Assembly (NCBI RefSeq): GCF_024124375.1
Contig: NZ_JAMXRZ010000025.1
Location: 1 to 42,086, forward strand
From: Klenkia sp. PcliD-1-E
GTDB taxonomy: Bacteria; Actinomycetota; Actinomycetes; Mycobacteriales; Geodermatophilaceae
Length of the DNA stretch: 42,086 nt
Reading direction: 5' to 3'
Below the pieces are notes generated by a model that was not told the origin of the DNA, made no database searches, and was given only the letters and a program-made list of their open reading frames with translations. The position numbers and the translations under genes are program-made. Below, in pieces: positions 3,365 through 28,996 of the stretch (within the stretch, counting starts at the first letter, position 1; each line of letters starts with the position of its first letter).

Positions 3365-3407
3365 GGCCCCATGATCACCCTGCCCGGCCGCGGGGTGGCC
3401 GGGGCCG

Positions 3408-8434: not shown

Positions 8435-8437
8435 CCC
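8393..8437 (+). repeat. attL core (3' end of tRNA-Ala)
   Basis: This 45-bp sequence starts in the anticodon loop (CTGGCAGTGTGG...) and runs three bases past the tRNA discriminator (...CAGCTCCACCC). It is identical to 28952-28996. Tyrosine integrases commonly recombine at anticodon or T-loop segments, and the island copy restores an intact tRNA here. Confidence 0.85.
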
Positions 8438-11660: not shown

Positions 11661-11678
11661 GTCAACACCAGGGTTGAC
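11661..11678 (+). promoter_or_regulatory. Island operator 1: GTCAAC-N6-GTTGAC before the MBL-thiolase unit
   Basis: A perfect 6+6 palindrome with a 6-bp spacer (ACCAGG), 21 bp before the ATG of the metallo-beta-lactamase-fold gene. It is one of six copies in the island; the right half plus the next base forms TTGACA, a -35-like hexamer. Confidence 0.7.
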
Positions 11679-11698
11679 AGCCCGTGGACGATGAGTGG

Positions 11699-12637
11699 AT
11701 GAGCTCCACCGCAGCCGACCCGGTCCTGCCACCGCCGGTCCTCGCCGAGGTCGCCGACGGCGTGTTCGCCTACGTCCAACCCGACGGCACCTGGTGGGTC
11801 AACAACACCGGTCTGCTGGTCGGCGCGCGGGGGGCCGCGGTGGTCGACACCTGCTCCACCGAGAAGCGCACCCGGGCGTTCCGGGACGCGGTCGCCACGG
11901 TCACCGACCAGCCGGTGCGCACCCTGGTCAACACCCACCACCACGGCGACCACACCCACGGCAACTGGCTGTTCGACGGCGCCACCGTGGTCGGCCACGA
12001 GGCCACCCGCGAGGGCGTGCTGGCCGCCGGCGTCCCCGGCGAGCAGCCGTTCTGGACGCCGTTCGACATCGGGCAGGTCGTCCTGGAACCACCCTTCCTG
12101 ACCTACACCGAGGGCGTCACGCTCTGGGTCGACGACCGGCGCTGCGAGGTCACCCACGTCGGCACGCCGGCGCACACCACGAACGACTCCGTGGTCTGGC
12201 TGCCCGAGCAGCGCACGCTGTTCGCCGGCGACCTGCTCTTCGCCGGCGGCACCCCGTTCCTGGTCATGGGGTCGCTGGCCGGGGCGATCGAGGTGCTCGA
12301 GCACGTCGTCGCCCCGCTCGGCGCTGAGACCATCGTGCCCGGCCACGGCCCGGTGTCCGGCCCGGAGCTGGTCGACGACGTGCTGGGCTACCTGCGCTGG
12401 CTCGACGGGGTCGCTCGCGACTCGCACGCCGCCGGGGTGTCACCCCTGGAAGCTGCGCGCAGCACCGACCTGGGGCCGTACGCCGGGTGGTCCGACGCGG
12501 AGCGCATCGTCGGCAACCTGCACCGGGCGCACGCCGAGCTGTCCGGTGGCGAGCGCGGCTGCCAGATCGACGTCCGTTCGGCACTGGCCGACATGGTCAC
12601 CTACAACGGCGGTCACCCCCTGACCTGCATCGCCTGA
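11699..12637 (+). CDS. Metallo-beta-lactamase-fold hydrolase, candidate lactonase/esterase
   Basis: 312 residues from ATG at 11699 (an in-frame GTG at 11684 is an alternative; neither has a clear ribosome site). The zinc-binding motif HHHGDH is at 80-85 (H80, H82, D84, H85). Further metal ligands are likely at the His in VGTPAHTTND, the Asp in LFAGDLLF and the His in IVPGHGPVSG. The fold is shared by N-acyl-homoserine-lactone lactonases, glyoxalase II and other thioester or ester hydrolases; the family does not fix the substrate. It is the first gene after operator 1 and is followed 86 bp later by the thiolase. In this cargo it could hydrolyse the lactone made by the monooxygenase, or a CoA thioester. 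Confidence 0.8.
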   Translation: MSSTAADPVLPPPVLAEVADGVFAYVQPDGTWWVNNTGLLVGARGAAVVDTCSTEKRTRAFRDAVATVTDQPVRTLVNTHHHGDHTHGNWLFDGATVVGHEATREGVLAAGVPGEQPFWTPFDIGQVVLEPPFLTYTEGVTLWVDDRRCEVTHVGTPAHTTNDSVVWLPEQRTLFAGDLLFAGGTPFLVMGSLAGAIEVLEHVVAPLGAETIVPGHGPVSGPELVDDVLGYLRWLDGVARDSHAAGVSPLEAARSTDLGPYAGWSDAERIVGNLHRAHAELSGGERGCQIDVRSALADMVTYNGGHPLTCIA

Positions 12638-12651
12638 CCCCGTGCAGCCGT

Positions 12652-12702
12652 CCCTGACCGCCCTGGTCAGGGCTGTTCCCCCCGCCGGCACCGCTGCCGG
12701 CG
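12652..12702 (+). terminator. Two hairpins between the MBL gene and the thiolase
   Basis: CCCTGACC/GGTCAGGG (12652-12659, 12665-12672, loop 5) is followed by CGCCGGC/GCCGGCG (12683-12689, 12696-12702, loop 6). They end 21 nt before the thiolase ATG. With no operator or clear promoter between the genes, they may act as a partial terminator or mRNA processing site within one operon. Confidence 0.45.
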
Positions 12703-12723
12703 CCCAGTGAGAGGAGTCGCCAG

Positions 12724-13866
12724 ATGCGCGACGCAGTGATCGTCGAGGCCGTGCGCACCCCCGTCGGCAAGCGCAACGGTGGCCTGTCCGGTGTCCACCC
12801 CGTCACCCTGTCCGCGCACGTCCTCCGCGAGCTGGTGTCGCGCGCCGGGGTCGACCCCGCGCTGGTCGACGACGTGGTGTGGGGGTGCGTCTCGCAGATC
12901 GGCGAGCAGACCTACGACGTCGCCCGCAACGCCGTGCTGTCGGCCGGCTGGCCCGAGAGCGTCCCCGGCACCACCGTCGATCGGCAGTGCGGCTCCTCCC
13001 AGCAGGCCGTGCACTTCGCGGCGGCGGGCCTGGTGGCCGGTCACTACGACGTCGTGGTCGCCGGCGGCGTGGAGTCGATGAGCCGGGTGCCCATGGGCTC
13101 TTCGCTGGCAGGTGCGAGCCCGCTGGACCAGGACTACCTGGACCGCTACGACGGCGTGGCCCCCAACCAGGGCGTGGGTGCCGAGCTGATCGCCGAGCAC
13201 TGGGGCCTGTCGCGCACCCAGCTCGACGAGTTCGCGCTGCGCTCGCACGAGCGCGCTGCCGCCGCCCAGGACGAGGGCCGCTTCGACGCCCAGATCGCCC
13301 CGGTCGACACCCCCGACGGCCGGGTCGCCCTCGACGAGGGCGTGCGGCGGGGTGGCACCGTGGAGGGCCTGGCCGGGCTGAAGACCCCGTTCAAGGCCGA
13401 CGGTGTGGTGTCGGCCGGGAACGCCAGCCAGATCTCCGACGGCTCGGCCGCCCTGCTGATGATGACCAGCGAGAAGGCCGCGGCCCTGGGTCTGACCCCG
13501 ATCGCCCGCGTGCACAGCGTCGCCCTGGCCGGCGACGACCCGGTCAAGATGCTCACCGCGCCCATCCCGGCCACCAAGAAGGTGCTGGACCGCTCCGGCC
13601 TGCGGCTGGACGAGATCGGCGTGTTCGAGATCAACGAGGCATTCGCGCCCGTGCCGCTGGCCTGGCAGGCCGAGATCGGCGGTGACGAGAAGCTGCTCAA
13701 CCCGTTGGGCGGGGCCATCGCGCTGGGTCACCCGCTGGGCGGCTCCGGCGCCCGCATCATGACCACGATGGTCCACCACATGCGCGACAACGGGATCCGC
13801 TACGGCCTGCAGTCGATGTGCGAGGGCGGCGGCCAGGCCAACGCGACCATCCTCGAGCTGGTCTGA
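12724..13866 (+). CDS. Thiolase (acetyl-CoA acyltransferase), FadA5-like
   Basis: 380 residues from ATG at 12724 with GAGAGGAG 8 nt upstream. Thiolase residues are present: nucleophile C89 in DRQCGSS, INEAFAP, the GHPLGGSGAR loop with its catalytic His, and the C-terminal Cys in MCEGGGQANA. It carries out the last step of beta-oxidation, cleaving a 3-ketoacyl-CoA with CoA. The N-terminal half (GKRNG, then GCVSQIGEQ) recalls the FadA5/steroid-side-chain group more than housekeeping thiolases, but this is recall and does not prove substrate. It probably shares operator 1 with the MBL gene, and ends convergent with the hydrolase gene. Confidence 0.93.
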   Translation: MRDAVIVEAVRTPVGKRNGGLSGVHPVTLSAHVLRELVSRAGVDPALVDDVVWGCVSQIGEQTYDVARNAVLSAGWPESVPGTTVDRQCGSSQQAVHFAAAGLVAGHYDVVVAGGVESMSRVPMGSSLAGASPLDQDYLDRYDGVAPNQGVGAELIAEHWGLSRTQLDEFALRSHERAAAAQDEGRFDAQIAPVDTPDGRVALDEGVRRGGTVEGLAGLKTPFKADGVVSAGNASQISDGSAALLMMTSEKAAALGLTPIARVHSVALAGDDPVKMLTAPIPATKKVLDRSGLRLDEIGVFEINEAFAPVPLAWQAEIGGDEKLLNPLGGAIALGHPLGGSGARIMTTMVHHMRDNGIRYGLQSMCEGGGQANATILELV

Positions 13867-13884
13867 CCTCCAGCCTGGATCAGC

Positions 13885-13965
13885 TCAGCTGATCGGACTC
13901 CGTCCTGGCCCACCGACGCCGGTGAGCCAGGACGGACATCCGCGGACCCAGCTGATCAGCGCCGG
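13885..13965. repeat. Dispersed palindromic element, copy B (between thiolase and hydrolase)
   Basis: A 10-bp inverted repeat, CCGTCCTGGC (13900-13909) and GCCAGGACGG (13926-13935), has an inner CACCG/CGGTG extension. It sits in the convergent gap and its right end covers the hydrolase stop codon. It is closely related to 131-210, with conserved GCTGATC and CTGATCA-N-CGCCGGAC flanks. It probably works as a bidirectional terminator. Confidence 0.65.
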
Positions 13966-14837
13966 ACCCAGCGGGCCAGGTCGGCGGTGAGCTCGTCGGC
14001 CTGGGCCAGTCGCTTGTCCAGCCACCAGAAGCCGTGCACCGCGCCCGGGTACTCCACCAGCTCCACCGGCACCCCGGCCTCCCGCAGCCGCCCTGCGTAC
14101 GCGCGGCCCTCGTCCCGCAAGGGGTCCAGCTCGGCCACCACGACAACGGTCGGCGGTGACCCGACCAGCTCGGGGGCGTGCAGGGGTGCGGCCAGCGGGT
14201 CGGTCGGCGAGCTGTCGCCGAGGTAGAGCCCCCAGAACCACTCCAGCTCGCGGCGGGTCATGAACGGTCCGTCGGCGCGGGCCAGCATCGACGGGGTGTC
14301 CGTCGGCGGGGCCAGGGTGGGGTAGAGCAGCACCTGCGCATCCGGGGCCGGTTCCCCCGCGTCCCGCAGCGACCGCGACACGGCTGCGACCAACGCCCCG
14401 CCGGCGGAGTCCCCGACCAGCACCAGGCGGTCCCCGAGCCTGGCCGACCGCACCCACCTGACGGCGGCCAGGCAGTCCAGCACCGGCCCCGGGAAGGGGG
14501 ACTCCGGGGCCAGCCGGTAGTCCACGGACACCACCGTGGCACCGGAGGCGGCGGCCAGCGCCCGGCACGGCCGGTCGGCGACCTCGACGTCGCCGATCAC
14601 GAACCCCCCGCCGTGCAGGTAGACCACAACCGGGCCCGCGGTCCCCGGCCGGTAGACCCGGACCCGGACGCCGTCCCCGAGGTCGACGTCGTGGACGTCG
14701 GCCACGGGGGCGGGCGGCTTCTGCAACCGGACGGCGCCCCGGACCTGCTCCCGCGCGGCGGCGATGCCGACGCGGTCGTAGGTGGTCACCCCCGCCGCGG
14801 CGAACGTCTCCAGCAGGTACTGCACGTCGGGGCGCAT
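13956..14837 (-). CDS. Alpha/beta hydrolase of the hormone-sensitive-lipase family
   Basis: 293 residues from ATG at 14837. The oxyanion motif HGGGF (VVVYLHGGGFVIGD), nucleophile GDSAGG (LVGDSAGGALVAA), acid in VAELDPLRDEG and His in GAVHGFWW form the full set of HSL/Est-type carboxylesterases. The start MRPDVQYLL looks natural for the family, although no strong ribosome site precedes it; an upstream short frame ends 11 nt earlier and may couple translation. It faces the monooxygenase gene across a region with two operators. Such pairs typically hydrolyse the ester or lactone product of a Baeyer-Villiger reaction. Cytoplasmic, with no signal peptide. Confidence 0.9.
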   Translation of the reverse strand: MRPDVQYLLETFAAAGVTTYDRVGIAAAREQVRGAVRLQKPPAPVADVHDVDLGDGVRVRVYRPGTAGPVVVYLHGGGFVIGDVEVADRPCRALAAASGATVVSVDYRLAPESPFPGPVLDCLAAVRWVRSARLGDRLVLVGDSAGGALVAAVSRSLRDAGEPAPDAQVLLYPTLAPPTDTPSMLARADGPFMTRRELEWFWGLYLGDSSPTDPLAAPLHAPELVGSPPTVVVVAELDPLRDEGRAYAGRLREAGVPVELVEYPGAVHGFWWLDKRLAQADELTADLARWVRR

Positions 14838-14848
14838 GTCGGGTCCGT

Positions 14849-14980
14849 TCAGCGGTGGTCGGACGCGCACCGGACCGGTGCCCAGGCATCCGGGGACCTC
14901 CGAGTTCGGGTGGCCCCCGCCGACCGCTCGAGCAACGCGTTCTGCCACGCAGTGGAGATCTGGTCGGTGTGGGTCGGCAC
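14849..14980 (-). CDS. 43-codon leader frame before the hydrolase gene
   Basis: A GTG at 14980 has an excellent ribosome site (GGAGGAG, 4-nt gap). It opens a 43-residue frame beginning MPTHTDQISTAWQNALLERS and turning Arg-rich. It starts 63 nt below operator 2 and stops 11 nt before the hydrolase ATG. The first half looks protein-like, the second like read-through, so it may be a truncated or frameshifted gene or a leader peptide. No family recognised. It accounts for most of the 205 bases between operator 2 and the hydrolase. Confidence 0.4.
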   Translation of the reverse strand: MPTHTDQISTAWQNALLERSAGATRTRRSPDAWAPVRCASDHR

Positions 14981-15042
14981 GGCGCTCCTCCGGGGCTCGC
15001 ATGTGGTGCAGCACCCGCACGATGGCTCGACGGCGCACTCTC

Positions 15043-15060
15043 GTCAACATCGACGTGGAC
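15043..15060 (-). promoter_or_regulatory. Island operator 2: GTCAAC-N6-GTGGAC before the hydrolase
   Basis: One mismatch from the island palindrome (GTGGAC instead of GTTGAC); spacer ATCGAC. It lies in the divergent region between the hydrolase unit and the monooxygenase, 86 bp centre-to-centre from operator 3. Confidence 0.55.
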
Positions 15061-15128
15061 TGAACAACGTGCGCAGGGCGGGCGCCGACAGCAGGGCGCT
15101 GGCGCTCCGGCAGCGGGGAACCGGTGGC

Positions 15129-15170
15129 GTCAACACGTTCGTTGACAGAGGTCCGTCCGCGACCTACCGT
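15129..15170 (+). promoter_or_regulatory. Island operator 3 overlapping the monooxygenase promoter
   Basis: Palindrome GTCAAC-ACGTTC-GTTGAC at 15129-15146. Its right half forms a -35 hexamer TTGACA (15142-15147), followed after exactly 17 bp by TACCGT (15165-15170) as -10. A regulator bound here would cover the -35 element, the layout of repression. The coding start is at 15205. Confidence 0.75.
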
Positions 15171-15204
15171 CGGAGGCGCACCACCCCGCGACGACAGGAG
15201 CGAC

Positions 15205-16863
15205 ATGAGCGCGAGTCCCCGCCCCGGCACGGCACACCACGACGTGGACGTAGTGGTCGTCGGCGCCGGTTTCGCCGGGCTGGCGATGCTGCGTGAGCTG
15301 CGCGACGAGCGCGGCATGAGCGTGCGGGTCCTGGAGGCCGGCGACGACGTCGGTGGCGTCTGGTTCTGGAACCGCTACCCCGGCGCGCGCTGCGACGTCG
15401 ACTCCACGGACTACAGCTACACGTTCTCGGCCGAGCTGGACGCCGAGTGGGACTGGTCCGAGCGCTACGCCACGCAGCCGGAGATCTTGCGGTACGTGCA
15501 CCACGTGGCCGACAAGTTCGACCTGCGACGGGACATCACCACCGGCGCCCGGGTCACCCGCGCCGACTGGGACGACGCCGAGGGACATTGGGACGTCGTC
15601 TGCGAGGACGGCACCACCGCTCGCGGGCGCTACCTGGTCATGGCGACCGGGTGCCTGAGTGCGGTGAAGAGGCCCGACATCCCCGGCATCGAGGAGTTCG
15701 CCGGTCAGGTGCTGCACACCGCCGACTGGCCGCGCGAGCCCGTCGACCTGGCCGGCAAGCGGGTCGGTGTCATCGGCACGGGGTCCTCGGGCATCCAGGT
15801 CATCCCGCGCATCGCGCCCGAGGTGGCCGAGCTGGTGGTCTTCCAGCGCACGCCGGCCTTCAGCGTGCCGGCCCACCACCACGTCCTGTCCGACGCCGAG
15901 CGGGCCGCCCTGCGGCTGACGCTGGCGCAGCGCCGCGAGCAGCTGCGCAGCTCGCCGACGGGCCTGTCGGTGCCGGTGACGAAGCGGGGAGCCCTGGACG
16001 ACGACGAGCAGGCTCGCCGTGCGCACTACGAGGAGCAGTGGCGCACGGCCGGGTTCGGTTTCCTGCTGGCCTACAACAACCTGCTCGTCAGCCACGAGGC
16101 CAACGCGACCGCGGCCGACTTCATCCGCAGCAAGATCGCCGAGCGGGTCGAGGACCCGGAACTGGCGGCCAAGCTGTCGCCGAGCAGCTATCCCTACGGC
16201 GCGAAGCGTCCGTGCGTGGACACCGGCTACTACGAGACCTTCAACCGGGAGAACGTCACCCTGGTCGACATCGCCGACGCCCCGATCACCGGGGCCACGG
16301 CAACCGGGCTGACCACCACGGCCGGCTCGCACGACCTCGACGTCGTCGTCCTCGCGACCGGGTTCGACGCCATGACCGGGTCCCTGCTGCGACCGACCAT
16401 CACCGGCCGGGACGGCGTTACCCTGCGGGAGCACTGGTCGGGCGGACCCCGCACCTACCTGGGCCTGATGACCGCCGGCTTCCCGAACATGTTCGTGATC
16501 GCCGGTCCGGGTTCACCCTCGCTGCTGGGCAACGTCATGGTGTCCATCGAGCAGCACGTGGACTGGGTGTCGGCGCTGCTGGCCGACTCGGCCGCTGCCG
16601 GCACACCGGTCATCGAGGCCACGGCCGAGGCGGAGGCCGGGTGGGTCGACCACGTCAACGCCGCCGCCGCTCCCACGCTCTACATGGAGGCCGCCTCCTA
16701 CTACCTCGGGGCCGAGGTGGAGGGGAAGCCGCGGGTGTTCATGCCCTACGCAGGTGGCCTGCGCCGCTACCGGCGGGAGTGCGACGCGGTCGCCGCCGAC
16801 GGCTACACCGGCTTCGAGCGGTCGCCCGCGCCGGGGGACGTCCGGGTGCCCCAGCCGGCCTGA
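15205..16863 (+). CDS. Baeyer-Villiger-type flavin monooxygenase
   Basis: 552 residues from ATG at 15205, with AGGAG five bases upstream. The FAD Rossmann motif GAGFAG is at 20-25. The type I Baeyer-Villiger fingerprint F-x-G-x3-H-x3-W-P is FAGQVLHTADWP starting at F165. The NADPH-binding GTGSSG starts near residue 191, and a C-terminal ATGFDAMTG is also typical. Length fits cyclohexanone/steroid monooxygenases. The enzyme uses NADPH and O2 to insert oxygen next to a ketone, giving an ester or lactone. It stands alone under operator 3, facing the esterase gene. The family is secure; the ketone accepted is unknown. Confidence 0.92.
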   Translation: MSASPRPGTAHHDVDVVVVGAGFAGLAMLRELRDERGMSVRVLEAGDDVGGVWFWNRYPGARCDVDSTDYSYTFSAELDAEWDWSERYATQPEILRYVHHVADKFDLRRDITTGARVTRADWDDAEGHWDVVCEDGTTARGRYLVMATGCLSAVKRPDIPGIEEFAGQVLHTADWPREPVDLAGKRVGVIGTGSSGIQVIPRIAPEVAELVVFQRTPAFSVPAHHHVLSDAERAALRLTLAQRREQLRSSPTGLSVPVTKRGALDDDEQARRAHYEEQWRTAGFGFLLAYNNLLVSHEANATAADFIRSKIAERVEDPELAAKLSPSSYPYGAKRPCVDTGYYETFNRENVTLVDIADAPITGATATGLTTTAGSHDLDVVVLATGFDAMTGSLLRPTITGRDGVTLREHWSGGPRTYLGLMTAGFPNMFVIAGPGSPSLLGNVMVSIEQHVDWVSALLADSAAAGTPVIEATAEAEAGWVDHVNAAAAPTLYMEAASYYLGAEVEGKPRVFMPYAGGLRRYRRECDAVAADGYTGFERSPAPGDVRVPQPA

Positions 16864-16875
16864 CCCCCTCCGACC

Positions 16876-16927
16876 CGACGAGGGCCGGGTACCGCGACAG
16901 CGCCGTCGCGGTACCCGGCCCTCGTCG
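16876..16927. terminator. Bidirectional terminator between monooxygenase and livF
   Basis: A perfect 23-bp inverted repeat (16876-16898 and 16905-16927, starting CGACGAGGGCC) with a 6-nt loop lies in the convergent gap, 12 nt after one stop and 23 nt before the other. Confidence 0.8.
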
Positions 16928-16950
16928 TGCAGGGGTCGAGGCCGGAGGGG

Positions 16951-17703
16951 TCAGGCCCCCAGGTAGGCATCCACCAGGTCGCCGCTCCTCAGCTGGTCGG
17001 CCGTGCCCTCGAGGACCACGCGGCCCTGCCGCAGCACGTAGGCGCGCTGGACCACCTCGAGGGCCAGGCCGGCGTTCTGCTCGACCAGCACCACGCTCAT
17101 CCCGCCCTCCGCGATGAGCTGGCGCAGTGCGTCGAACAGTGAGGCCACGATGGCCGGCGCGAGCCCGGTCGAGGGCTCGTCGAGGAGGAGGAGCGCCGGA
17201 TCGGTCATCAGCGCGCGCCCGAAGGCGAGCATCTGCTGCTCCCCGCCCGACATCGAGCCCGCCCGGCGGTCGAGCATGCGGCCCAGGGCGGGGAACAGCT
17301 CCAGCACCCGGGCGCGGAGCTCGGTGGCGCGTGCGGTCGGCAGCGCCTGGCCGCCCATGGCCAGGTTGTCCGCGACGGTCATGTCGGCGAACAGCTCACG
17401 CCCGCTGGGCACGTGGCCGACCCCTGCCCGGGTGCGGGCGTGGTCGGCCAGGGCGCTGACGTCGCGACCGTGCAGCACGACGGTGCCGGCCTGCGGCCGG
17501 ACGATGCCCGCAACAGCGCGCAGCAGCGTCGTCTTGCCCGCGCCGTTGGCGCCCAGGACGCCGACGACCTCGTCGCGGCCGACGTGCACGGACACGTCGT
17601 GCAGCACACGCAGGGCCCCGTAGCCGGCCGTCAGGCCCTGGACGGCGAGGGCGTCGGTGTCGCCGCCGTCGCCGTCCCGAGCCGCTGCCCCGAACAGCTT
17701 CAC
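16951..17703 (-). CDS. LivF-type ABC ATPase of the island importer
   Basis: 250 residues from GTG at 17703, overlapping the stop of the fused permease-ATPase gene (GTGA). Walker A GANGAGKTT at 51-59, signature SMSGGEQQM, Walker B ALLLLDEPSTGLAP and the switch His region are all present, in the order typical of LivF in branched-chain amino acid importers. It energises uptake together with the upstream permeases and binding protein. It is the last gene of the SDR-livK-livH-livMG-livF unit. Liv-type transporters in catabolic clusters often import aromatic or carboxylic substrates rather than amino acids. Confidence 0.93.
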   Translation of the reverse strand: MKLFGAAARDGDGGDTDALAVQGLTAGYGALRVLHDVSVHVGRDEVVGVLGANGAGKTTLLRAVAGIVRPQAGTVVLHGRDVSALADHARTRAGVGHVPSGRELFADMTVADNLAMGGQALPTARATELRARVLELFPALGRMLDRRAGSMSGGEQQMLAFGRALMTDPALLLLDEPSTGLAPAIVASLFDALRQLIAEGGMSVVLVEQNAGLALEVVQRAYVLRQGRVVLEGTADQLRSGDLVDAYLGA

Positions 17704-19592
17704 GAGGTCACCGCCCCCGGGGTGGTCGACCCGGTGGACCCGCCTGCGCCGAGGCCGACGCCGGATCCGAGGTAGGCCCGGATCACCTCCGGGTGCCGGA
17801 GGACCTCGGCCGGTTCGCCGTCCATGATCGTTGCTCCTCGGTCCATGACGACGATCTCGTCGGCGATGTCGACGATCGCCTTGATGACGTGCTCGATCCC
17901 GGCGACGGCGTCCACGCCGAAGCCGGGCATCCGGCGGATGGCATCCCGGACCACCTCGAGCTCCTCGTCGCTCATGCCGGCCATGACCTCGTCGAGCAGG
18001 ATCAGGGACGGGCCGAGCGCGAGGGCCCGACCCAGTTCGACCATGCGGCGGTGACCCACCGCGAGGGTGTCCGATGCGGCGAAGCGGATGTCGGTGAGAC
18101 CCAGCACCTGGACCACCCAGGACGCCTGCTCGTGCGCCTGCGCCCGGTGCCGGCCGCCCAGTGCGGCGAGGTACACGTTCTCCCACACCGTCATGGAGGC
18201 GAAGGGCCGCGGGATCTGGAAGGTGCGGGCCAGGCCGCGGCGTGCGAGGCGGTGCCCGGGTCGACCGCCGCGTACGGGCTGTCCGTCGAAGACGATGCTG
18301 CCCTGGGTCGGCGTCACGATCCCGGCGACGGCGTTGAAGAGCGTGGTCTTGCCCGCGCCGTTGGCACCGATGATGAACACGGTCTGACCGCGGCGGACCG
18401 TGAGGTCCACGCTGCGCAGCGCCTGCACACCGCCGAAGCTGACCCCGACGTCCCGGCAGACCAGCAGTTCGTCCGAGGACGCGGCGGCCGCCCGAGGGGT
18501 GTGGGAGGCCCGCAACCGCTCCGCCAGCTCGGCCTTGCTGGGGAGCTCGGCCGGTCCGCGGACGATCTCGCGGCGCAACCAGCCGACCCGGTTGGCGAGG
18601 GAGACGATGCCACCGGGCAGGAACACCGTGACCAGGACGACCAGGGCGCCGAACAGGGCCAGCTGCCACTCGGGGAAGGCGGTGGCCAGTTGGTCGCTCA
18701 CCACGGTCAGCACGACCGCGCCGATGAGCGGGCCCCACAGCGTGCCGATGCCACCGGCCAGCACCAGCACGATGACCTGCAGGTCGAGTGCGGGGTTGAA
18801 GACGCTGGACGTGTCGATGAAGCCGCGGTTGTAGGCCACCATGCCGCCGACCAGAGCGGGGACCAGGGCGCTGAGCGAGAAGGACAGGACCTTGACCTGG
18901 GTGGTGGCCACGCCCATGGCCTCGGCCACCTGCTCGTCGTCGCGGACCGCCATCGCGCGCAGCCCGAACGGCGACCGGGCCATGAAGGCGTTCACGGCGA
19001 AGGCCATCACGGCGACCCCGGTGACCGACAGCAGCACCGGCTTCTGCGCGATGACGCCCGGGACGACCAGGCCGGTGGAGCCGCCGGTCAGCTCCCACTG
19101 CGAGAGCAGCAGCGAGACGATGTAGGCCAGGCCGAACATGCCCAGCGCGAAGTAGATCCCCTGCAGCCGGAGCATGACCCAGCCCACCGGTACCGCGACG
19201 ACGGCGCCGGCCAGGCCACCGAGCACCGCAGCCAGGAACCAGGGGACCTCAGCGTGGATGATCAGCAGGGCGGTGGCGAAGGCGCCGAAGCCGAAGAAGA
19301 CGACCTGCCCGAAGCTGATGTAGCCGGTGAAGCCGCTGATGATGTTGAAGGCGTAGGCCAGCGCGACGAACATGGCGATGTCGATCGCCAGCTGGTTGGT
19401 CGCGAGGTCGCCGAGCAGCCCCCACGCCAGGAACGCGGCCACCAGTGCGGCGAGCAGCCCGAGCTGCAGGGCGTCGCTGCGGGTGGAGGGCAGCCGGCCG
19501 CCGGTGTGCCGCGGGCCGCCGCTGGACCGGTTGAGCAGGCCTGCGACGAGGGAGCCGCCGGACGGTCGGGCGTCGGTGGTCGGGCCGGTCAT
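17700..19592 (-). CDS. Fused LivM permease - LivG ATPase
   Basis: 630 residues from ATG at 19592, which overlaps the livH stop (ATGA). Residues about 40-345 form a LivM-type permease with many hydrophobic helices (AYAFNIISGFTGYISFGQVV is the family signature near its start). A linker follows, and an ABC ATPase begins near 380 with Walker A IGANGAGKTT (about 405), a signature region LAVGHRRMVELG and Walker B LILLDEVMAGM. The signature differs from the usual LSGGQ-like form but is intact at the glycine. Permease and ATPase are usually separate genes; fusions of this kind are known, so no sequencing error need be assumed. Confidence 0.9.
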   Translation of the reverse strand: MTGPTTDARPSGGSLVAGLLNRSSGGPRHTGGRLPSTRSDALQLGLLAALVAAFLAWGLLGDLATNQLAIDIAMFVALAYAFNIISGFTGYISFGQVVFFGFGAFATALLIIHAEVPWFLAAVLGGLAGAVVAVPVGWVMLRLQGIYFALGMFGLAYIVSLLLSQWELTGGSTGLVVPGVIAQKPVLLSVTGVAVMAFAVNAFMARSPFGLRAMAVRDDEQVAEAMGVATTQVKVLSFSLSALVPALVGGMVAYNRGFIDTSSVFNPALDLQVIVLVLAGGIGTLWGPLIGAVVLTVVSDQLATAFPEWQLALFGALVVLVTVFLPGGIVSLANRVGWLRREIVRGPAELPSKAELAERLRASHTPRAAAASSDELLVCRDVGVSFGGVQALRSVDLTVRRGQTVFIIGANGAGKTTLFNAVAGIVTPTQGSIVFDGQPVRGGRPGHRLARRGLARTFQIPRPFASMTVWENVYLAALGGRHRAQAHEQASWVVQVLGLTDIRFAASDTLAVGHRRMVELGRALALGPSLILLDEVMAGMSDEELEVVRDAIRRMPGFGVDAVAGIEHVIKAIVDIADEIVVMDRGATIMDGEPAEVLRHPEVIRAYLGSGVGLGAGGSTGSTTPGAVTS

Positions 19593-20455
19593 GCCGTTGC
19601 CTTCCTCGAGAGCAGTCCGGCGGGCTTGAGCAGCATCACCAGGATGAGCATCAGGTAGGGCGCAGCAGCCTGGACGACGGCGCCGAACTGGTAGCCGGCC
19701 ACGGTCTGCACGATGCCCACGAGCAGGGCGCCGACGACCGCCCCCTTGTAGTTGCCCAGGCCGCCGAGGGCGATGACCACGAACGCGACGATGGTGAAGT
19801 TCGTGGCCGCCTGCGGTGCGATCGGCTGGGTCATCACCAGCAGCATCCCGGCGGCCGCGGCGACCGCCGCACCGACGCTGAAGCCGACCAGCCGGAGCCG
19901 CCGGGGGTTGATCCCGCACGCGCCGGCGCCCAGCGGGCTCTGCGCCTGCGCCCGAAGGCTCGTGCCCGACCGGGTGCGGGTGAGCCAGAACGCGATGCCC
20001 GCGGTGATCGCCGCGGCCAGCACCACGCCGACCAGGAGGGACCACGCGAAGCGGAAGGGCCCGACGGTGAGGGAGGACTGCAGGAAGGTGGTGGTCCGGT
20101 AGTCCGAGCCCCAGACCTGCTGACCGACGTTGATCAGGATGTAGGACAGCCCGAAGGTGGCCATGAGGGTCAGCAGCTCGTGCTGCTTGGCGGTGCCCCT
20201 GATCCGCTCGATGATCGCCCACTGGACGAGTGCGCCGAGAGCGGAGGCGGCGACGACCACCACGAGCAGCCCGAGGAAGGGGTTGATCCCGGCCCCGTAC
20301 AGACTCCACACGCCGAGCCCGCCGAGCACGATGAAGGCTCCGTGCGCGAGGTTCACGATGCCCATCACGCCGAAGACCAGGTTCAGGCCCTGGGCCATGA
20401 GCAGGTAGAACCCACCCAGCAGGACGCCGTTGAGCGCCACCTGCACGTACGTCAC
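19589..20455 (-). CDS. LivH-type permease
   Basis: 288 residues from GTG at 20455, with GAGAGG about 6 nt upstream. Hydrophobic throughout, with the LivH signature GLNLVFGVMGIVNLAHGAF near the N-terminus and VIALGGLGNYKGAVVGALL near the end. It forms the transmembrane pore with the LivM part of the next gene. It follows livK after a hairpin that may lower expression of the membrane parts relative to the binding protein. Confidence 0.93.
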   Translation of the reverse strand: MTYVQVALNGVLLGGFYLLMAQGLNLVFGVMGIVNLAHGAFIVLGGLGVWSLYGAGINPFLGLLVVVVAASALGALVQWAIIERIRGTAKQHELLTLMATFGLSYILINVGQQVWGSDYRTTTFLQSSLTVGPFRFAWSLLVGVVLAAAITAGIAFWLTRTRSGTSLRAQAQSPLGAGACGINPRRLRLVGFSVGAAVAAAAGMLLVMTQPIAPQAATNFTIVAFVVIALGGLGNYKGAVVGALLVGIVQTVAGYQFGAVVQAAAPYLMLILVMLLKPAGLLSRKATA

Positions 20456-20473
20456 GTCGGATCCTCTCGGTCG

Positions 20474-20512
20474 GACGTCCCTGTCCGGCCCACGCGGCCG
20501 GACAGGGACGTC
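20474..20512 (-). terminator. Hairpin between livK and livH
   Basis: A perfect 17-bp inverted repeat (20474-20490, 20496-20512; GACGTCCCTG...CAGGGACGTC) with a 5-nt loop starts 5 nt after the livK stop and sits inside the operon. Such intercistronic hairpins often cause partial termination or protect the upstream binding-protein message. Confidence 0.6.
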
Positions 20513-20517
20513 GGGGA

Positions 20518-21705
20518 TCAGTAGGGGAGCTGTGCGGGGACGGCGCCGGCCACGTCGGCGGGGAAGACGATGGCCTGGGCGCCGTCGATCCACTGGAAGA
20601 GCACGGGGCTGTACCCGGTCTGCACCCCGCTGTCGTCGACGGCGTACTGGCCGAGGACGGTCTCGAACCCGCCCGCGTGGAGGGCGTCGTTGACCGCGGA
20701 CTTGTCGGTCGACCCGGCTTCCTCGATGGCGGCGGCGAGGACCTGGACCGTCGCGTAGGCGCCGGCGGCCTGCGTGTTGACCGGGGTGTCGTAGGCGTCC
20801 TCGTACCCGGCGAGGAACTCCTCGGTGCCCTGGAACCCGAGAGCCGCGTCGAACTGCGTGTAGCCGACCGTCCGCTCGGCGAGGTCCCCGAGGCCCTCGA
20901 CGAACGCGGGGTCGACGGCGGTCGGGCTGGCGATGACCTCGGGACGGAAGCCCTGCTGGTCCAGCGCTCGGGTCAGTCCGATGGAGTCCTGGATGGCAGA
21001 GCACTCGATGACCACCTGCGGGTCACCCTCGGCGATGCGCAGTGCGGTCGACGAGAAGTCGCTGGTGGAGGCGGCGTACTCGATCCGGTCGACCAACTCG
21101 GCACCGGCATCGGTGATCGTCTCCTCTGCGCCGTCGCAGATGGCCGAGAAGGCGTCGAGGTCGTTGTTGACCAGGGTGATCCGGGTGTACCCGGCATCCG
21201 CGGCGAACTGCGGGACCTGGGCGAGGGTGTCCCGGCCCGGGCCGAGGCCGGCCATGACCGACCAGGAGGTGCCGTCGAAGACCGCAGGCGAGGAGGTCTG
21301 GCTGTGCACCATCGGCGTCTGGTAGCGCTCGGCGAGCTGCGCGGCCGGGCCGGCCAGTGCGCTGCCGTAGGGCGAGAGGACCGCGTCCACGCCGGTGGAG
21401 CCGAGGAACTCGGTGTAGAGCCGGCTGACGATGCCCGCATCGCTCTGGTCGTCCTGCAGGTCCAGCTCGAGCTGACGGCCCAGCACCCCGCCGTCGGCGT
21501 TGATCTGGTCCACGGCCAGCTGGTAGCCGTTCGAGACGTTGGTGCCGCTGCTGGCGTAGTTGCCGGTCAGCGAGACCGACGCCCCGATCCGGATCGGTTC
21601 GTCGGAGGACCCGCCCGAGGCGCTGTCGTCGGACCCGCCCCCGCAGCCGGTGACGACGGTGGCGGTCACCGCGATGCCGATCGCGAGCCTGGTGGACCTG
21701 CTCAT
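20518..21705 (-). CDS. LivK-type substrate-binding lipoprotein
   Basis: 395 residues from ATG at 21705 with GAGGAG upstream. The signal peptide ends in a lipobox (TVVTGC, lipidated Cys at 21), then a Gly/Ser-rich linker. The mature part is a type I periplasmic binding protein (Peripla_BP_6): IRIGASVSLTGNYASSG, YQLAVDQINADGGVLGRQLEL and PYGSALAGPAAQLAERY match the family opening. It is anchored outside the cell and delivers substrate to LivH/LivMG/F. Its specificity cannot be told from sequence; the neighbouring genes suggest a carboxylate, ketone or terpenoid-like compound rather than an amino acid. Confidence 0.92.
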   Translation of the reverse strand: MSRSTRLAIGIAVTATVVTGCGGGSDDSASGGSSDEPIRIGASVSLTGNYASSGTNVSNGYQLAVDQINADGGVLGRQLELDLQDDQSDAGIVSRLYTEFLGSTGVDAVLSPYGSALAGPAAQLAERYQTPMVHSQTSSPAVFDGTSWSVMAGLGPGRDTLAQVPQFAADAGYTRITLVNNDLDAFSAICDGAEETITDAGAELVDRIEYAASTSDFSSTALRIAEGDPQVVIECSAIQDSIGLTRALDQQGFRPEVIASPTAVDPAFVEGLGDLAERTVGYTQFDAALGFQGTEEFLAGYEDAYDTPVNTQAAGAYATVQVLAAAIEEAGSTDKSAVNDALHAGGFETVLGQYAVDDSGVQTGYSPVLFQWIDGAQAIVFPADVAGAVPAQLPY

Positions 21706-21781
21706 GGGTGCTCCTCGTGCGCTGGCCCGGCGTCGGTGCCGGGTCGGGTGGGGACGGGTGGTGCGGTGGTGCGGTGGGGGG

Positions 21782-22600
21782 TCAGGGGCCGACGGCGGCG
21801 AGCTCGTCGGCAGAGGGGGACGCCAGGGACGCGTCACCGGTGGTCATGCCGCCGTCGACGGGCAGCAGCTGGCCGGTGACGTAGTCGGCGTCGTCGGAGA
21901 GCAGGAAGGCGATGACCCGGCCGACGTCCTCGGGGGTGCCGAAGCGGCCGGCCGGTGTGCGGGCCAGGACGGCGTCGCGGAAGCGCGGGACGGCGAAGGC
22001 GCGGCGGGTCATCCCGGTCTCGATGTAGCCGGGGCTGACCGCGTTGACCCGGATGGCGTGCGGTGCGAGCTCCAGCGCCGTCGCCCGGGTGAGCACCCCC
22101 ACGCCGCCCTTGGAGGCCACGTAGGAGGTCAGGTTGGGGGCGGCGAAGTGGGCCATGACCGACGCGACGTTGACCACCGCTCCACCCGAGCCCTGCGCGA
22201 TCAGCTCCCTGGCGAACCGCTGCGTCACCGCGCGGGTGCCGGTCAGGTTGACTCCCAGCACGCGGTCCCACTCGGCGTCCGGCGTGTCGGTGAAGGCGTG
22301 CCGGCTCGTGACCCCGGCGCTGTTGACCAGACCGTCCGCGAGCACTCCCCGCTCGCGCAGGCCGGCGAACAACGCGTCCACCGACGCGACGTCGGCGACG
22401 TCGACGCGCAGAGCCTCGCCCCGCCCCCCGGCCTCCACGACCGCAGCGGTCGTCGCCTCCGCCGTTCCCGGGTCCAGGTCGGCGACCAGCACCCGGGCTC
22501 CCCGCGCGGCCAGCACGACCGCCGCGCCGGCACCGATGCCCGAGCCGCCGCCGGTGACCAGGACGGTGCGGCCCGACAGCGGCGTGGCGACGGTGCTCAT
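21782..22600 (-). CDS. Short-chain dehydrogenase/reductase
   Basis: 272 residues from ATG at 22600 with AGAGGAG upstream. Classical SDR features: NAD(P)-binding TGGGSGIG, VNSAGV, catalytic Ser in VASVMAH, Y-x3-K in SYVASKGG, and SPGYIETGMT. An acidic residue after the second strand (VADLDPG) points to NAD+ over NADP+, hence oxidation of an alcohol. It heads the transporter operon 129 bp below operator 4. In the proposed route it would oxidise a secondary alcohol to the ketone used by the monooxygenase, or act on a beta-oxidation hydroxyacyl intermediate. Confidence 0.92.
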   Translation of the reverse strand: MSTVATPLSGRTVLVTGGGSGIGAGAAVVLAARGARVLVADLDPGTAEATTAAVVEAGGRGEALRVDVADVASVDALFAGLRERGVLADGLVNSAGVTSRHAFTDTPDAEWDRVLGVNLTGTRAVTQRFARELIAQGSGGAVVNVASVMAHFAAPNLTSYVASKGGVGVLTRATALELAPHAIRVNAVSPGYIETGMTRRAFAVPRFRDAVLARTPAGRFGTPEDVGRVIAFLLSDDADYVTGQLLPVDGGMTTGDASLASPSADELAAVGP

Positions 22601-22728
22601 CGGTCTCCTCTGGGTGTGGCGGCGTGGTCGGGTCCCCGCTTCTGGAGGACCGGTTCGCCGGGTGTGCGCTCAGTGCGCGCTCAGCCTGGGCTGCTGGTGG
22701 GCAAAGCTAGGTGACCCAGGACACGCGC

Positions 22729-22746
22729 GTCAACCCCTGTGTTGAC
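22729..22746 (-). promoter_or_regulatory. Island operator 4: GTCAAC-N6-GTTGAC before the SDR-liv operon
   Basis: A perfect palindrome with spacer CCCTGT. On the minus strand the downstream half gives TTGACG followed 18 bp later by TAGCTT, a plausible -35/-10 pair for the SDR-livKH-MG-F unit. Confidence 0.7.
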
Positions 22747-22802
22747 GGCTGGTCGGGATCGTTCCCGCACCGTGCCCCGGCGGATCCGCCCAGGGCACGA
22801 CG

Positions 22803-22835
22803 ACGGACCGGACGGCGAGGAGCCGTCCGGTCCGT
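22803..22835 (-). terminator. Terminator after the acyl-CoA operon
   Basis: A 14-bp perfect inverted repeat (ACGGACCGGACGGC / GCCGTCCGGTCCGT) with a 5-nt loop, beginning 16 nt beyond the stop of the NTF2-like gene and before operator 4. Confidence 0.75.
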
Positions 22836-22851
22836 GGGCTGTCGAGGTCGG

Positions 22852-23597
22852 TCAGCGCCGGGCGCGGCTCCGCAGCAGACCGTGCCGGTCGCTGACCACC
22901 ACACCGCCGTCGACCACCCCGCCCACGACCGTCACCAGCCCCGCCACGCCCAGCCGGACGACCTCACCGGTGTCCGTGTCCTCCCCGACCTGGGTCGCGG
23001 CGAACGCCACCTGGTCACCGGCGGAGAACAGCTGCGCCACCTCGACGTCGCGGGGACGGACCAGTGCGGCGGTCAGCCCGTCGTCCCAGGTCACGCCGTC
23101 GACGCCGGGCTGCGCCGAGGCCAGCCAGGTGCGGACGACGTCCTCGGCGGCGGGGTCGGGCACCGCGGGCCGGGTCGTCCACGGCGCCACCATCGGCGTC
23201 CCCACGGTGTCCGGGACCCCGTCGGCCAGCTGACGCCGGCGGGCCGCGTAGTCCTCCTGGGTCCAGTTCTCGGTCAGCCGCCCGCCGTCCCAGGCGAACA
23301 GCGCGACACCGGTCCAGGCGGCGGCCCGCAGGTCGTGCCGGGCCGACGCCCCGTGCTCGGTGAAGTGCAGCACCAGCCGGTCCTCGGTGAACGCGAGGTC
23401 GTGCACGGTCAGCTGCAGGCCGGGGAACTGCTCGAGCTGGCCGACGGTGGCCGGCACGTAGGCCTCGAGACCGTCGAGCTCGACGTCGCCGATGTGCACC
23501 TGGTAGCCGGGCACCATGATCTCCGGGGGGACGGACGCATCGGCCCGGTCCAGCCAGTCGACGGTGAAGCGCTGGGCCAGGCGGGCGAGCGGGTGCA

Positions 23598-23598
<1 letters not shown>
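22852..23598 (-). CDS. Tandem SnoaL/NTF2-like protein
   Basis: 248 residues from ATG at 23598, overlapping the synthetase stop (TGATG). The first half has the SnoaL-like polyketide-cyclase/NTF2 pattern: YVPATVGQLEQFPGLQLTVH, then FTEDRLVLHFTEHG, and WDGGRLTENWTQEDYAARRR at its end. The second half (about 145-240) has a similar alternation (AEDVVRTWLASA, then VAFAATQVGEDTDTGEVVRL) and looks like a second NTF2-like cone. The fold includes ketosteroid isomerases, epoxide hydrolases and dehydratases as well as non-catalytic proteins. Its place in the acyl-CoA operon suggests an isomerase or hydratase role on the pathway substrate; that is inference. Confidence 0.7.
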
Positions 23599-25115
<1,517 letters not shown>

Positions 25116-25117
25116 GG

Positions 25118-26314
25118 TCAGTAGCTCTTGGGCAGGCCCAGGCTGTGCTGGGCCACGTGGTTGAGGACCATCTCGCGGCTGACCGGCGCGGTCTTGAACA
25201 TGCGCGCGACGAACCACAGGTCGGCCAGGCCGTACTCGTAGGACAGGCCGTTGCCGCCGTGCACCTGGATGGCCTGGTCCAGGGCCTTCACCGCGGCGTC
25301 GCCGGCGGCGAACTTGGCGATGTTGGAGGCCTCGGCGGCGTCGAGGCCGGCGTCGGACATCTCGGCGGCGCGCATGGTCATCAGCCGGGCCAGCTCCACC
25401 GCGATGTAGGACTCCGCCAGCGGGTGCGCCACCCCCTGGTGGGCGCCGATCGGGGTCTTCCAGACGGTGCGCTCGTTCGCGTACTGCGCACCCTTGGCCA
25501 GCGCGTAGCGGGCGATGCCGTTGGCCATGCACGCCGCGGCCACCCGCTCGGGGTTGAGCCCGGCGAAGACCTGCTTGAGGCCCTCGCCCTCGGTGCCGAC
25601 CAGCCCGGCGCGCTCGACCGGGACGTCGTCGAAGAACGTCATGAACTGCTTCTCGGGCAGCATCAGCGCCGAGTCCAACTTCTGGAAGGTGAGCCCGGGG
25701 GCGTCGGTGTCGCAGATGAACAGCGACAGCGTGTGCCGCCCGTCGGGGCCGGGCTCGGCGTCGCGGGCCACCACGAGCAGGGCCTGGCACTCGTCGACGC
25801 CCGACGTCCAGTACTTCTGCCCGCGCAGCCGCCACCCGCCGTCGCCGTCCTTGTGCGCGGTGGTGGTGATCTTGTGGGTGTTGGAGCCGGCGTCGGGCTC
25901 GGTGATGGCGAACGCCATCCGGAAGGTGCCGTCGGCGATGCCGGGCAGGTACTTGGCCTTCTGCTCGGGCGTGCCGTGCGCGGTCAGCACGGTGCCGGCG
26001 ATGGCCGGGCTGATCACGACCATGAACATGGGGCAGCCCTGGCTGGCCATCTCCTCGATGACCACGGCCAGGTCGGCCAGCCCGCCGCCCCCGCCGCCGT
26101 GCTCCTCGGGCAGGTGGACGCCGAGGAACCCGGCCTTGCCCATCGCCGACCACAGCTCGTCGGCGCGCTCGCCCCTGGCGACGACGTCCTGGAAGTAGGA
26201 GCGGCCGTAGCTGCCGACCAGCTGCCGCACCGCCTCGCGCAGGTCGCGGCGCTCCTCGGTGGTGTCGCTGATCCGCGAGCCCTTGCCGGGCAGGCCGACC
26301 GGGGTGTTGTTCAC
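25118..26314 (-). CDS. Acyl-CoA dehydrogenase
   Basis: 398 residues from GTG at 26314 with GAGGAG upstream. Family features: GFLGVHLPEEHGGGGGG, the FAD-binding segment AFAITEPDAGSN, RGQKYWTSG, FDDVPVERAGLVG, and the C-terminal VHGGNGLSYEYGLADLW. The Glu in the last motif is in position to be the catalytic base. It oxidises an acyl-CoA to a 2,3-enoyl-CoA using FAD and an electron-transfer flavoprotein not encoded in this window. It is the first gene of the ACAD-synthetase-NTF2 operon under operator 5. Confidence 0.94.
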   Translation of the reverse strand: MNNTPVGLPGKGSRISDTTEERRDLREAVRQLVGSYGRSYFQDVVARGERADELWSAMGKAGFLGVHLPEEHGGGGGGLADLAVVIEEMASQGCPMFMVVISPAIAGTVLTAHGTPEQKAKYLPGIADGTFRMAFAITEPDAGSNTHKITTTAHKDGDGGWRLRGQKYWTSGVDECQALLVVARDAEPGPDGRHTLSLFICDTDAPGLTFQKLDSALMLPEKQFMTFFDDVPVERAGLVGTEGEGLKQVFAGLNPERVAAACMANGIARYALAKGAQYANERTVWKTPIGAHQGVAHPLAESYIAVELARLMTMRAAEMSDAGLDAAEASNIAKFAAGDAAVKALDQAIQVHGGNGLSYEYGLADLWFVARMFKTAPVSREMVLNHVAQHSLGLPKSY

Positions 26315-26334
26315 GAGGTCTCCTCTGCAACGTC

Positions 26335-26379
26335 GTCAACGCCATCGTTGACGGTAGGGAGTGGCCTGGGCCACGTCAA
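26335..26379 (-). promoter_or_regulatory. Island operator 5 with promoter of the acyl-CoA dehydrogenase operon
   Basis: Palindrome GTCAAC-GCCATC-GTTGAC at 26335-26352. On the minus strand TTGACG (26374-26379) and TACCGT (26351-26356) are 17 bp apart, and the -10 runs into the operator. A bound regulator would cover the -10 and start site. This TACCGT matches the -10 at operator 3. Confidence 0.75.
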
Positions 26380-26393
26380 GGGTGCGAACGGGG

Positions 26394-27245
26394 TCAGGGC
26401 CAGTCGTAGAACCCGCGGCCGGACTTGACGCCCAGCTCGCCCGCGGCGACCTTGTCGACCAGCAGCTGCGGCGGCGCGAACTGCGGCCCCAGGGCGGTCT
26501 CCAGGTTCCGGGCGATGTGCAGCCGCACGTCCAGCCCGACGATGTCGGTCAGCCGCAGGGGCCCGACGGGGTGCCGGTAGGCCAGCTGGACCGCCCGGTC
26601 GATGTCGGCCGGTTCGCCCACCCCCTGCTCGACCATCCGGATGGCCTCCAGGGCGGCCACCACGTCGAGCCGGCTGGTGGCGAAGCCCGGTGCGTCGGCG
26701 ACCACCGCGGACTCCTTGCCGATCCCGGTGACGGCGGCCAGCGCCGTCTCCAGCGTCGCCGCCGACGTGCGTGCGCCGCGGACCACCTCGACCACCGGGA
26801 TGGACCAGACGGGGTTGAAGAAGTGCATGCCCAGGAACGCCTCGGGGCGGGCCAGGCCCTCGGCGAGGGCGTCGATGGACAGGGCGCTGGTGTTGCTGGC
26901 CAGCACGGCCGGTCCGCGCGCCTCGCAGGCGGCCAGCACCCGGTGCTTGAGCGCCAGGTCCTCGGGCACCGTCTCGACGACCAGGTCCAGGCCCTCGGGC
27001 AGCTCGTCGGCCGAGGGCACGTGCTCCAGGCGGTCGGCCAGGCCGGCGGCGACCTCGGCGGAGAGCTTGCCGCGGCGCACCCCGGCCTCTGCTGCGCCGG
27101 CCACCTCGCGGCGCACCGCGGCCATCCGTGCGTGGTCGGGCTCGACCACCACGGCGCGCGCCCCGGTCACCGCGAAGACGTAGGCGATGCCCACGCCCAT
27201 CGTGCCGGCCCCGACCACACCGACGCTGCCCGTCGCATCCGCCAC
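26394..27245 (-). CDS. 3-hydroxyacyl-CoA dehydrogenase
   Basis: 283 residues from GTG at 27245 with GAGGAGG 5 nt upstream. NAD-binding GAGTMGVGIAYVFA at the N-terminus, with E after the second strand (VVVEPDH). The catalytic His lies in LGMHFFNPVW, and the C-terminal domain has LTDIVGLDVRLHIARNL and SGRGFYDWP. This is the 3-hydroxybutyryl-CoA dehydrogenase (PaaH/Hbd) layout, without an enoyl hydratase part. It oxidises the 3-hydroxyacyl-CoA made by the divergent hydratase to a 3-ketoacyl-CoA. It shares the operator 6 region with that hydratase. Confidence 0.93.
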   Translation of the reverse strand: MADATGSVGVVGAGTMGVGIAYVFAVTGARAVVVEPDHARMAAVRREVAGAAEAGVRRGKLSAEVAAGLADRLEHVPSADELPEGLDLVVETVPEDLALKHRVLAACEARGPAVLASNTSALSIDALAEGLARPEAFLGMHFFNPVWSIPVVEVVRGARTSAATLETALAAVTGIGKESAVVADAPGFATSRLDVVAALEAIRMVEQGVGEPADIDRAVQLAYRHPVGPLRLTDIVGLDVRLHIARNLETALGPQFAPPQLLVDKVAAGELGVKSGRGFYDWP

Positions 27246-27281
27246 CCGGTCCTCCTCGACGCGTCCTGGCTGTACCGTGCC

Positions 27282-27299
27282 GTCAACGTACACGTTGAC
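27282..27299. promoter_or_regulatory. Island operator 6 between 3-hydroxyacyl-CoA dehydrogenase and hydratase
   Basis: A perfect palindrome with spacer GTACAC, central in the 70-bp divergent gap: 36 bp from one start codon and 16 bp from the other. TACCGT at 27273-27278 on the plus strand could be the hydratase -10. Confidence 0.7.
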
Positions 27300-28951: not shown

Positions 28952-28996
28952 CTGGCAGTGTGGGGGTCAGGGGTTCGAGTCCCCTCAGCTCCACCC
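28952..28996 (+). repeat. attR core (partial tRNA-Ala copy)
   Basis: A 45-bp exact copy of 8393-8437 with no 5' half of a tRNA before it, so it is not a functional tRNA. It marks the right end of the island. Host sequence resumes with the hairpin at 29001. Confidence 0.85.

Follow-up and report, generated by a model that had tools for sequence, protein, structure and literature searches.

Six palindromic sites in a Klenkia catabolic cluster as predicted operators of a linked TetR-family regulator

Several TetR-family regulators of bacterial catabolism have been described. BkaR of Mycobacterium recognizes the core GTTA-N-T-N4-A-N-TAAC and is autoregulated (PMC3920632), whereas the site of EdcR is TnnCnnTACnAnTnGTAnnGnnA (PMC8700777). 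SRTF1 of Pimelobacter simplex, encoded next to a ketosteroid dehydrogenase gene, has a 22-bp site and senses progesterone (PMC7062782), the effector of KstR2 is HIP-CoA (PMC7807495), and PfmR/TTHB023 of Thermus thermophilus binds the 16-bp sequence (a/c)Y(g/t)A(A/C)YGryCR(g/t)T(c/a)R(g/t) (PMC7022988). Here, we analyzed a 42,086-nucleotide stretch of Klenkia sp. PcliD-1-E (contig NZ_JAMXRZ010000025.1; hereafter the window), in which the palindrome GTCAAC-N6-GTTGAC precedes the genes of a putative catabolic cluster. We conclude, with high confidence, that a TetR-family protein, whose gene lies at 28085-28741, is the predicted binder of six such operators and would repress the whole cluster until released by a metabolite.

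Palindromic sites of the window and their restriction to the cluster

A previous sequence-only reading of the window had reported six matching palindromes, one of them imperfect, and a pattern search recovered precisely these: five exact copies and one copy with a single mismatch. The sites, one associated promoter and the regulator gene are as follows (the score is that of the weight matrix described below).

11661..11678, no strand: operator GTCAACACCAGGGTTGAC, exact, ahead of the genes for an MBL-fold hydrolase and a thiolase
15043..15060, no strand: imperfect operator GTCAACATCGACGTGGAC, one mismatch, score 20.3, upstream of an alpha/beta hydrolase gene
15129..15146, no strand: operator GTCAACACGTTCGTTGAC, exact, its right arm forming the -35 box of the promoter of a type I Baeyer-Villiger monooxygenase (BVMO) gene
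15142..15170, plus strand: promoter-like TTGACA-N17-TACCGT before the BVMO gene, with a geometry that recurs across sites
22729..22746, no strand: operator GTCAACCCCTGTGTTGAC, exact, before the genes for a short-chain dehydrogenase (SDR), a binding protein and a Liv-type transporter
26335..26352, no strand: operator GTCAACGCCATCGTTGAC, exact, overlapping the -10 element of a minus-strand promoter of an acyl-CoA dehydrogenase (ACAD) gene
27282..27299, no strand: operator GTCAACGTACACGTTGAC, exact, between the divergent genes for a 3-hydroxyacyl-CoA dehydrogenase (HCDH) and an enoyl-CoA hydratase (ECH)
28085..28741, minus strand: TetR-family regulator, the predicted binder, with PF00440 (E 1.7e-14) and PF17932 TetR_C_24

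The six sites stand ahead of seven units, with operon limits that we inferred, and these units comprise all 15 cargo genes; the proposal that each site precedes a cargo transcription unit was thus borne out. We then searched the complete assembly (4,511,692 bases on 262 contigs, 99.91% complete) and found exactly five perfect copies, every one in the window contig, with none for the reversed-pattern control. The earlier claim that no copy lies outside the region therefore holds for exact sites, and equally good copies are not scattered elsewhere in the genome. Sequences with exactly one mismatch occur at 12 places genome-wide, 15043 included, so that this site is not special by count alone. 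With up to two mismatches, the genome contains 341 places compared with 94 for the reversed control, and weak matches are therefore uninformative by themselves; the window holds nine such matches against 1.11 expected, a number reached in none of 100 shuffles. A weight matrix built from 120 sites of other genomes assigned scores of 20.3-28.6 to the six window sites; no other window position scored above 4.0, and the top score among 20 random first-order sequences was 9.5.

The gene at 28085-28741 is the sole TetR-family match that we found in the window. The sequence-only reading had spoken of a single TetR gene, which is true of the window but not of the genome, where the protein has 19 further matches at E ≤ 1e-3, none of them above 37% identity. 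Neither the pattern search nor the matrix search of the window detected an operator upstream of the TetR gene itself, which argues against autoregulation through this site in the window.

Co-inheritance of the sites with a TetR clade

We assessed whether the sites follow the TetR gene across 112 genomes of the family, in which the TetR was called at E ≤ 1e-30. Ten genomes carry it, and nine of these contain 3-7 exact sites each (44 in total), while none of the 102 genomes without it has more than two (Fisher test of three or more sites against TetR presence, 1.8e-12). The reversed control gave a total of four matches in the same 112 genomes. On the contig of the TetR gene, at most 22 kb away from it, are 37 of the 44 sites; 6 others are on short contigs with cluster genes, and 1 is elsewhere. 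Across 20 fetched stretches, sites are found ahead of the same genes, with the arms kept and the spacers diverged. One TetR-bearing genome (G058) has a second TetR copy, beside an HCDH gene and broken by stops (L035, 14758-15402), the other copy being within the same cluster.

Beyond the family, 78 loci were retrieved by TetR similarity alone, from the best 80 of 238 relatives, a sample that leaves more distant members outside. When 6-bp dyads of all gaps from 0 to 12 were ranked across 35 loci not belonging to the close family, GTCAAC with gap 6 came first (23 of 35 loci, 50 copies), and this dyad was absent from all 36 outgroup loci, whose TetRs are at ≤34% identity. Among the 42 nearer loci, gap 6 occurred in 28, gap 12 in one, and gaps 0-5, 7-11 and 13-15 in none; the next best of the 180 arm permutations made from the same six letters reached 3 of 42. 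The degenerate form RTCAACR-N4-YGTTGAY was present in 35 of the 42 nearer loci compared with 0 of 36 outgroup loci. Four plasmid records were also matched by the TetR alone, three of which were fetched, and the operator was found in all three.

Phylogenetic analysis of 82 TetR rows, including those of the window and the plasmids (quick search, no bootstrap), placed every one of the 39 site-bearing TetRs, that of the window included, in a single clade of 46 rows (SH-aLRT 100), and none of the 36 other rows has a site. Members of this clade come from Actinomycetota and Pseudomonadota. The clade is also marked by a recognition-helix signature, D-R-A-[S/T] (D in 45, R in 46, A in 44 and S/T in 46 of 46), which the window TetR carries as D59-R60-A61-T62; outgroup TetRs mostly have G/A, K/R, G and A/G at the same columns. 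None of these columns falls within a peptide pattern that had served to retrieve the loci.

These data bear on the idea that the sites are recombination, repeat or chance sequences devoid of regulatory meaning. GTTGAC resembles a -35 box, so that promoters may yield half sites, but promoters would have to account for a full dyad at a gap of exactly 6 with next to none at other gaps, for its absence from 36 outgroup loci, and for arms kept at orthologous positions despite differing spacers. The gap and arm permutations, the outgroup loci and the gap in matrix scores together rule this out for practical purposes, and we assign it a negligible probability.

A search that started from the motif rather than the protein led to the same regulator. 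RTCAACR-N4-YGTTGAY occurs in 92 of 394 sampled genomes of the class, and the 18 genomes other than that of the window with at least two sites were searched for the TetR at E ≤ 1e-15. The one other sampled genome with at least three sites on a single contig (G122) has seven, between 24.6 and 52.1 kb, with a TetR of 39% identity among them at 29.6 kb. In a further genome (G303), a TetR of 47% identity lies 18 kb from one of two sites. Five more genomes yielded only matches of 25-30% identity, and eleven yielded nothing at this threshold.

Several observations weigh against the linked TetR as the binder. One or two exact sites, 15 in total, are present in 14 of the 102 family genomes that lack the TetR. 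Their spacers begin with C or end in G in 13 of 15 cases compared with 10 of 44 in TetR-bearing genomes (p = 1.9e-5); two window sites, 11661 and 22729, share this feature and are among those 10. Such spacers are disfavoured by the clade matrix, and the sites in TetR-less genomes perhaps belong to another regulator. The tenth TetR-bearing family genome (G080, L012/L037) has no exact site, and no site with up to one mismatch lies in the 20 kb around its TetR, which is 81% identical and adjoins a thiolase gene; this may be an orphan regulator left after loss of the pathway. Seven of the 46 clade members lack an R/Y-perfect site in the DNA fetched, three of them on loci of 3.5-8.2 kb and two (L053, L055) with a one-mismatch site. 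Among the class genomes, matches to the reversed control were frequent too, at up to four per genome, so that single sites mean little, and in one genome (G470) four sites are spread over as many contigs and a search for the TetR gave nothing at E ≤ 1e-15.

The window TetR gene has no site in front of it, the G080 TetR has none nearby, and 14 TetR-less family genomes hold one or two sites; these points favour a reading in which the palindrome belongs to another regulator encoded elsewhere and the linked TetR controls something else. That explanation is improbable: across phyla, the sites accompany this TetR clade even where the cargo changes, 14 of 45 clade loci have a perfect site no more than 400 bp ahead of the TetR gene, and the motif-first search arrived at a TetR of this kind. 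Since the signal travels with the TetR gene in distant bacteria, the linked TetR very likely switches the whole set. The proposal of a cluster-wide regulon with this protein as its predicted binder is thus supported by co-inheritance across phyla and by the overlap of operators with promoters, described below.

Promoter overlap, predicted repression and candidate ligands

The sequence-only reading had noted that the palindromes at 15129 and 26335 overlap hexamers of TTGACR-N17-TACCGT promoters, and both the TTGACA and the TTGACG forms are indeed present. The latter, on the minus strand before the ACAD gene, consists of TTGACG at 26379-26374, a 17-nucleotide spacer and TACCGT at 26356-26351. 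At 22729, the left arm provides the minus-strand -35 hexamer of TTGACG-N18-TAGCTT (22733-22704), and a site is found at the same place in L023, L026, L029 and L032. The 27282 operator closely follows a TACCGT (27273-27278), and all 18 bp are identical in G076, G078, G079 and G081. The imperfect site at 15043 is the second site of the divergent hydrolase/BVMO region, where L027 and L034 likewise hold a second, one-mismatch site. At the orthologous position of 11661, a site occurs in L019 and L031 and a one-mismatch site in L033.

We extended this comparison to 147 distinct sites, counting 294 arms on both strands. TANNNT following the embedded TTGAC was found for 29 arms at spacer 17 and 15 arms at spacer 18, compared with ~1.1 per other offset. 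TA at position -4, where a -10 element would run into the operator, was found for 21 arms compared with ~6 at most upstream offsets. The operator half thus often coincides with a -35 box and some sites lie on the -10 element, which argues for repression by steric blocking of RNA polymerase at many sites. Three points temper this inference: either kind of overlap is seen in only 63 of the 147 sites; TA is also raised at -2 (15 arms) and -1 (24 arms), so that AT-rich surroundings may contribute to the signal at -4; and no -35 or -10 overlap was seen at 11661. Some TetR proteins activate transcription, and the regulator could in principle do so at these sites. We consider this quite unlikely, given that many sites lie on -35 or -10 elements or on the likely start point, where a bound protein would block the polymerase.

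In the mechanism that we propose, a TetR dimer bound to (R)TCAAC(R)-N4-(Y)GTTGA(Y) on the -35 element, on the -10 element or just after it would exclude RNA polymerase. The units held down would be those for the MBL hydrolase and thiolase; the alpha/beta hydrolase; the BVMO; the SDR and Liv-type transporter; the ACAD, ligase and SnoaL-like protein; the HCDH; and the ECH. No operator precedes the regulator gene in this cluster. Binding of a metabolite of the pathway to the C-terminal domain, most probably of a CoA thioester that the ligase produces, would free the DNA and jointly induce uptake, ketone-to-ester oxidation, hydrolysis and beta-oxidation.

The protein has an N-terminal helix-turn-helix and an all-helical fold with a ligand domain, as is typical of the TetR family. 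Fold neighbours of its structure model (pLDDT 89.6) include KstR2 (4w97/4w1u), FadR and AibR, with FadR and AibR at 18-23% identity and, according to their structure titles, solved with CoA esters. Because CoA-binding regulators are among the nearest folds, an acyl-CoA is a plausible ligand, by analogy with these neighbours and in view of the cargo. DarR, RefZ and EthR are also neighbours at similar Z, a point on the other side, and the fold neighbours therefore do not single out a CoA ligand. The TetR might instead sense an unactivated substrate such as a ketone, lactone or steroid-like compound. The cargo includes oxygenases, some likely acting on unactivated compounds, and SRTF1 offers a precedent in its response to progesterone (PMC7062782). 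FadR and AibR with their CoA esters, and KstR2 with HIP-CoA (PMC7807495), point the other way, and we regard an unactivated ligand as possible, though the less probable of the two.

Cargo, integration context and comparison with known regulators

The cargo genes encode the following products.

11699..12637, plus strand: MBL-fold hydrolase, starting at 11684 or 11699
12724..13866, plus strand: acyl-CoA thiolase
13956..14837, minus strand: alpha/beta hydrolase, an Abhydrolase_3 esterase
15205..16863, plus strand: type I BVMO, its nearest solved relative being phenylacetone monooxygenase (E 9e-178)
16951..21705, minus strand: Liv-type ABC transporter (two ATPases, two permeases, binding protein)
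21782..22600, minus strand: SDR
22852..23598, minus strand: SnoaL-like protein, start by our own reading
23598..25118, minus strand: AMP-forming acyl-CoA ligase
25118..26314, minus strand: ACAD
26394..27245, minus strand: HCDH, start by our own reading
27316..28080, plus strand: ECH

This cargo of a soil bacterium probably breaks down a ketone-like compound. At least one relative of the window CoA ligase, SDR or ECH, all common families, is present in 40 of the 42 nearer loci. Three clade loci (L063, L064 and L074) combine sites with luciferase-like monooxygenases, accompanied by amidohydrolases and an MmgE/PrpD gene in L074 or by an amidase gene in L064, and cargo seems to have been exchanged under one operator. 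A Pfam search (E ≤ 1e-10) of 20 chosen open reading frames from L069, L074, L063 and L064 gave no match of the ketosteroid-dehydrogenase type.

The cluster lies between two copies of a perfect 45-nt repeat.

8393..8437, plus strand: left copy, the 3' part of tRNA-Ala(GGC) at 8362-8436
28952..28996, plus strand: right copy, a likely attachment-site remnant

The copies, 20,559 bases apart, bracket an integrase gene (PF00589), an HTH_17 (excisionase-like) gene and the cluster, and the region thus pairs an integrase with a direct repeat from the 3' end of a tRNA-Ala gene, as an integrative element does. In Klenkia brasiliensis (G076, L019), the cluster stands right after the same tRNA-Ala, with additional CoA-ligase-like genes and a different BVMO (60%), and shows no alignment to window positions 8484-11660, which hold the integrase; a second exact repeat is missing from the DNA fetched for it, and none of the other fetched stretches contains an exact copy. 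A clean empty site was not seen in the relatives compared: between the tRNA match and a GH15 gene, G076 has the cluster plus ~12 kb and G082 has ~8.4 kb. This GH15 gene flanks the window cluster; its distance from the cluster is ~12 kb in G076, compared with 34 kb in G079 and 38 kb in G078. The term island, as used in the sequence-only reading, is thus supported by the repeat and the integrase, and is qualified by the presence of the cluster at the same tRNA-Ala without the integrase segment. The flanks at 231-5591 and 32350-37771 contain KdpD, response regulator, KdpA and Mrp-type Na+/H+ antiporter genes.

Taken together, the TetR probably represents an undescribed subfamily of Actinomycetota and Pseudomonadota, found on plasmids and here beside an integrase, with a fixed operator, RTCAACR-N4-YGTTGAY, and exchanged cargo that would comprise, by lineage, a type I BVMO, a luciferase-like monooxygenase with an amidohydrolase, or a flavin reductase. 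If so, it would control, as a portable module, the oxygenative cleavage of ketones or rings that feeds beta-oxidation, and an operator arm would often double as a -35 box. The operator, with the signature of the recognition helix, provides a testable regulon and a search key for clusters with Baeyer-Villiger or luciferase-type monooxygenases in two phyla. The TetR could also serve as a sensor of pathway metabolites, its ligand would reveal what the clusters degrade, and the sharp divide between TetRs with and without the operator could be used to study how specificity for DNA becomes fixed.

Comparison with described regulators did not reveal an identity for the window TetR. NCBIfam has no equivalog above its cut-off for this protein, and MftR of the mycofactocin system was rejected at 30.2 bits against an equivalog cut-off of 224.9. 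A description of the operator was not found in the open-access papers searched. None of the operators compared, those of EdcR, MftR, BkaR, PfmR and Thermus FadR, matches, and the regulator in PMC13273656 is an IclR rather than a TetR protein.

KstR2 of Mycobacterium tuberculosis, one of the fold neighbours, has a different operator, ANCAAGNNCTTGNT, which has no exact match in the window and a single one-mismatch match, at 27925 inside the ECH gene; the BVMO in the cargo further sets the window cluster apart. The KstR motif, TNNAACNNGTTNNA, likewise has no exact match in the window. FadR of Bacillus and AibR of Myxococcus share 18-23% identity with the window TetR. PfmR/TTHB023 (3vpr) differs from the window TetR in its own 16-bp site (PMC7022988). 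BkaR is similar in being a TetR repressor with several palindromic, mostly linked sites before genes of acyl-CoA and keto-acid catabolism, but it is autoregulated and has another core (PMC3920632), whereas the window TetR has no site upstream. EdcR and SRTF1, from a sphingomonad-related bacterium and a relative of Nocardioides, are likewise TetR regulators of catabolic clusters, EdcR differing in its site (PMC8700777, PMC7062782). Members of the site-bearing clade occur in the host groups of both. Set beside these systems, an operator shared across phyla would be the notable trait of this predicted TetR catabolic repressor.

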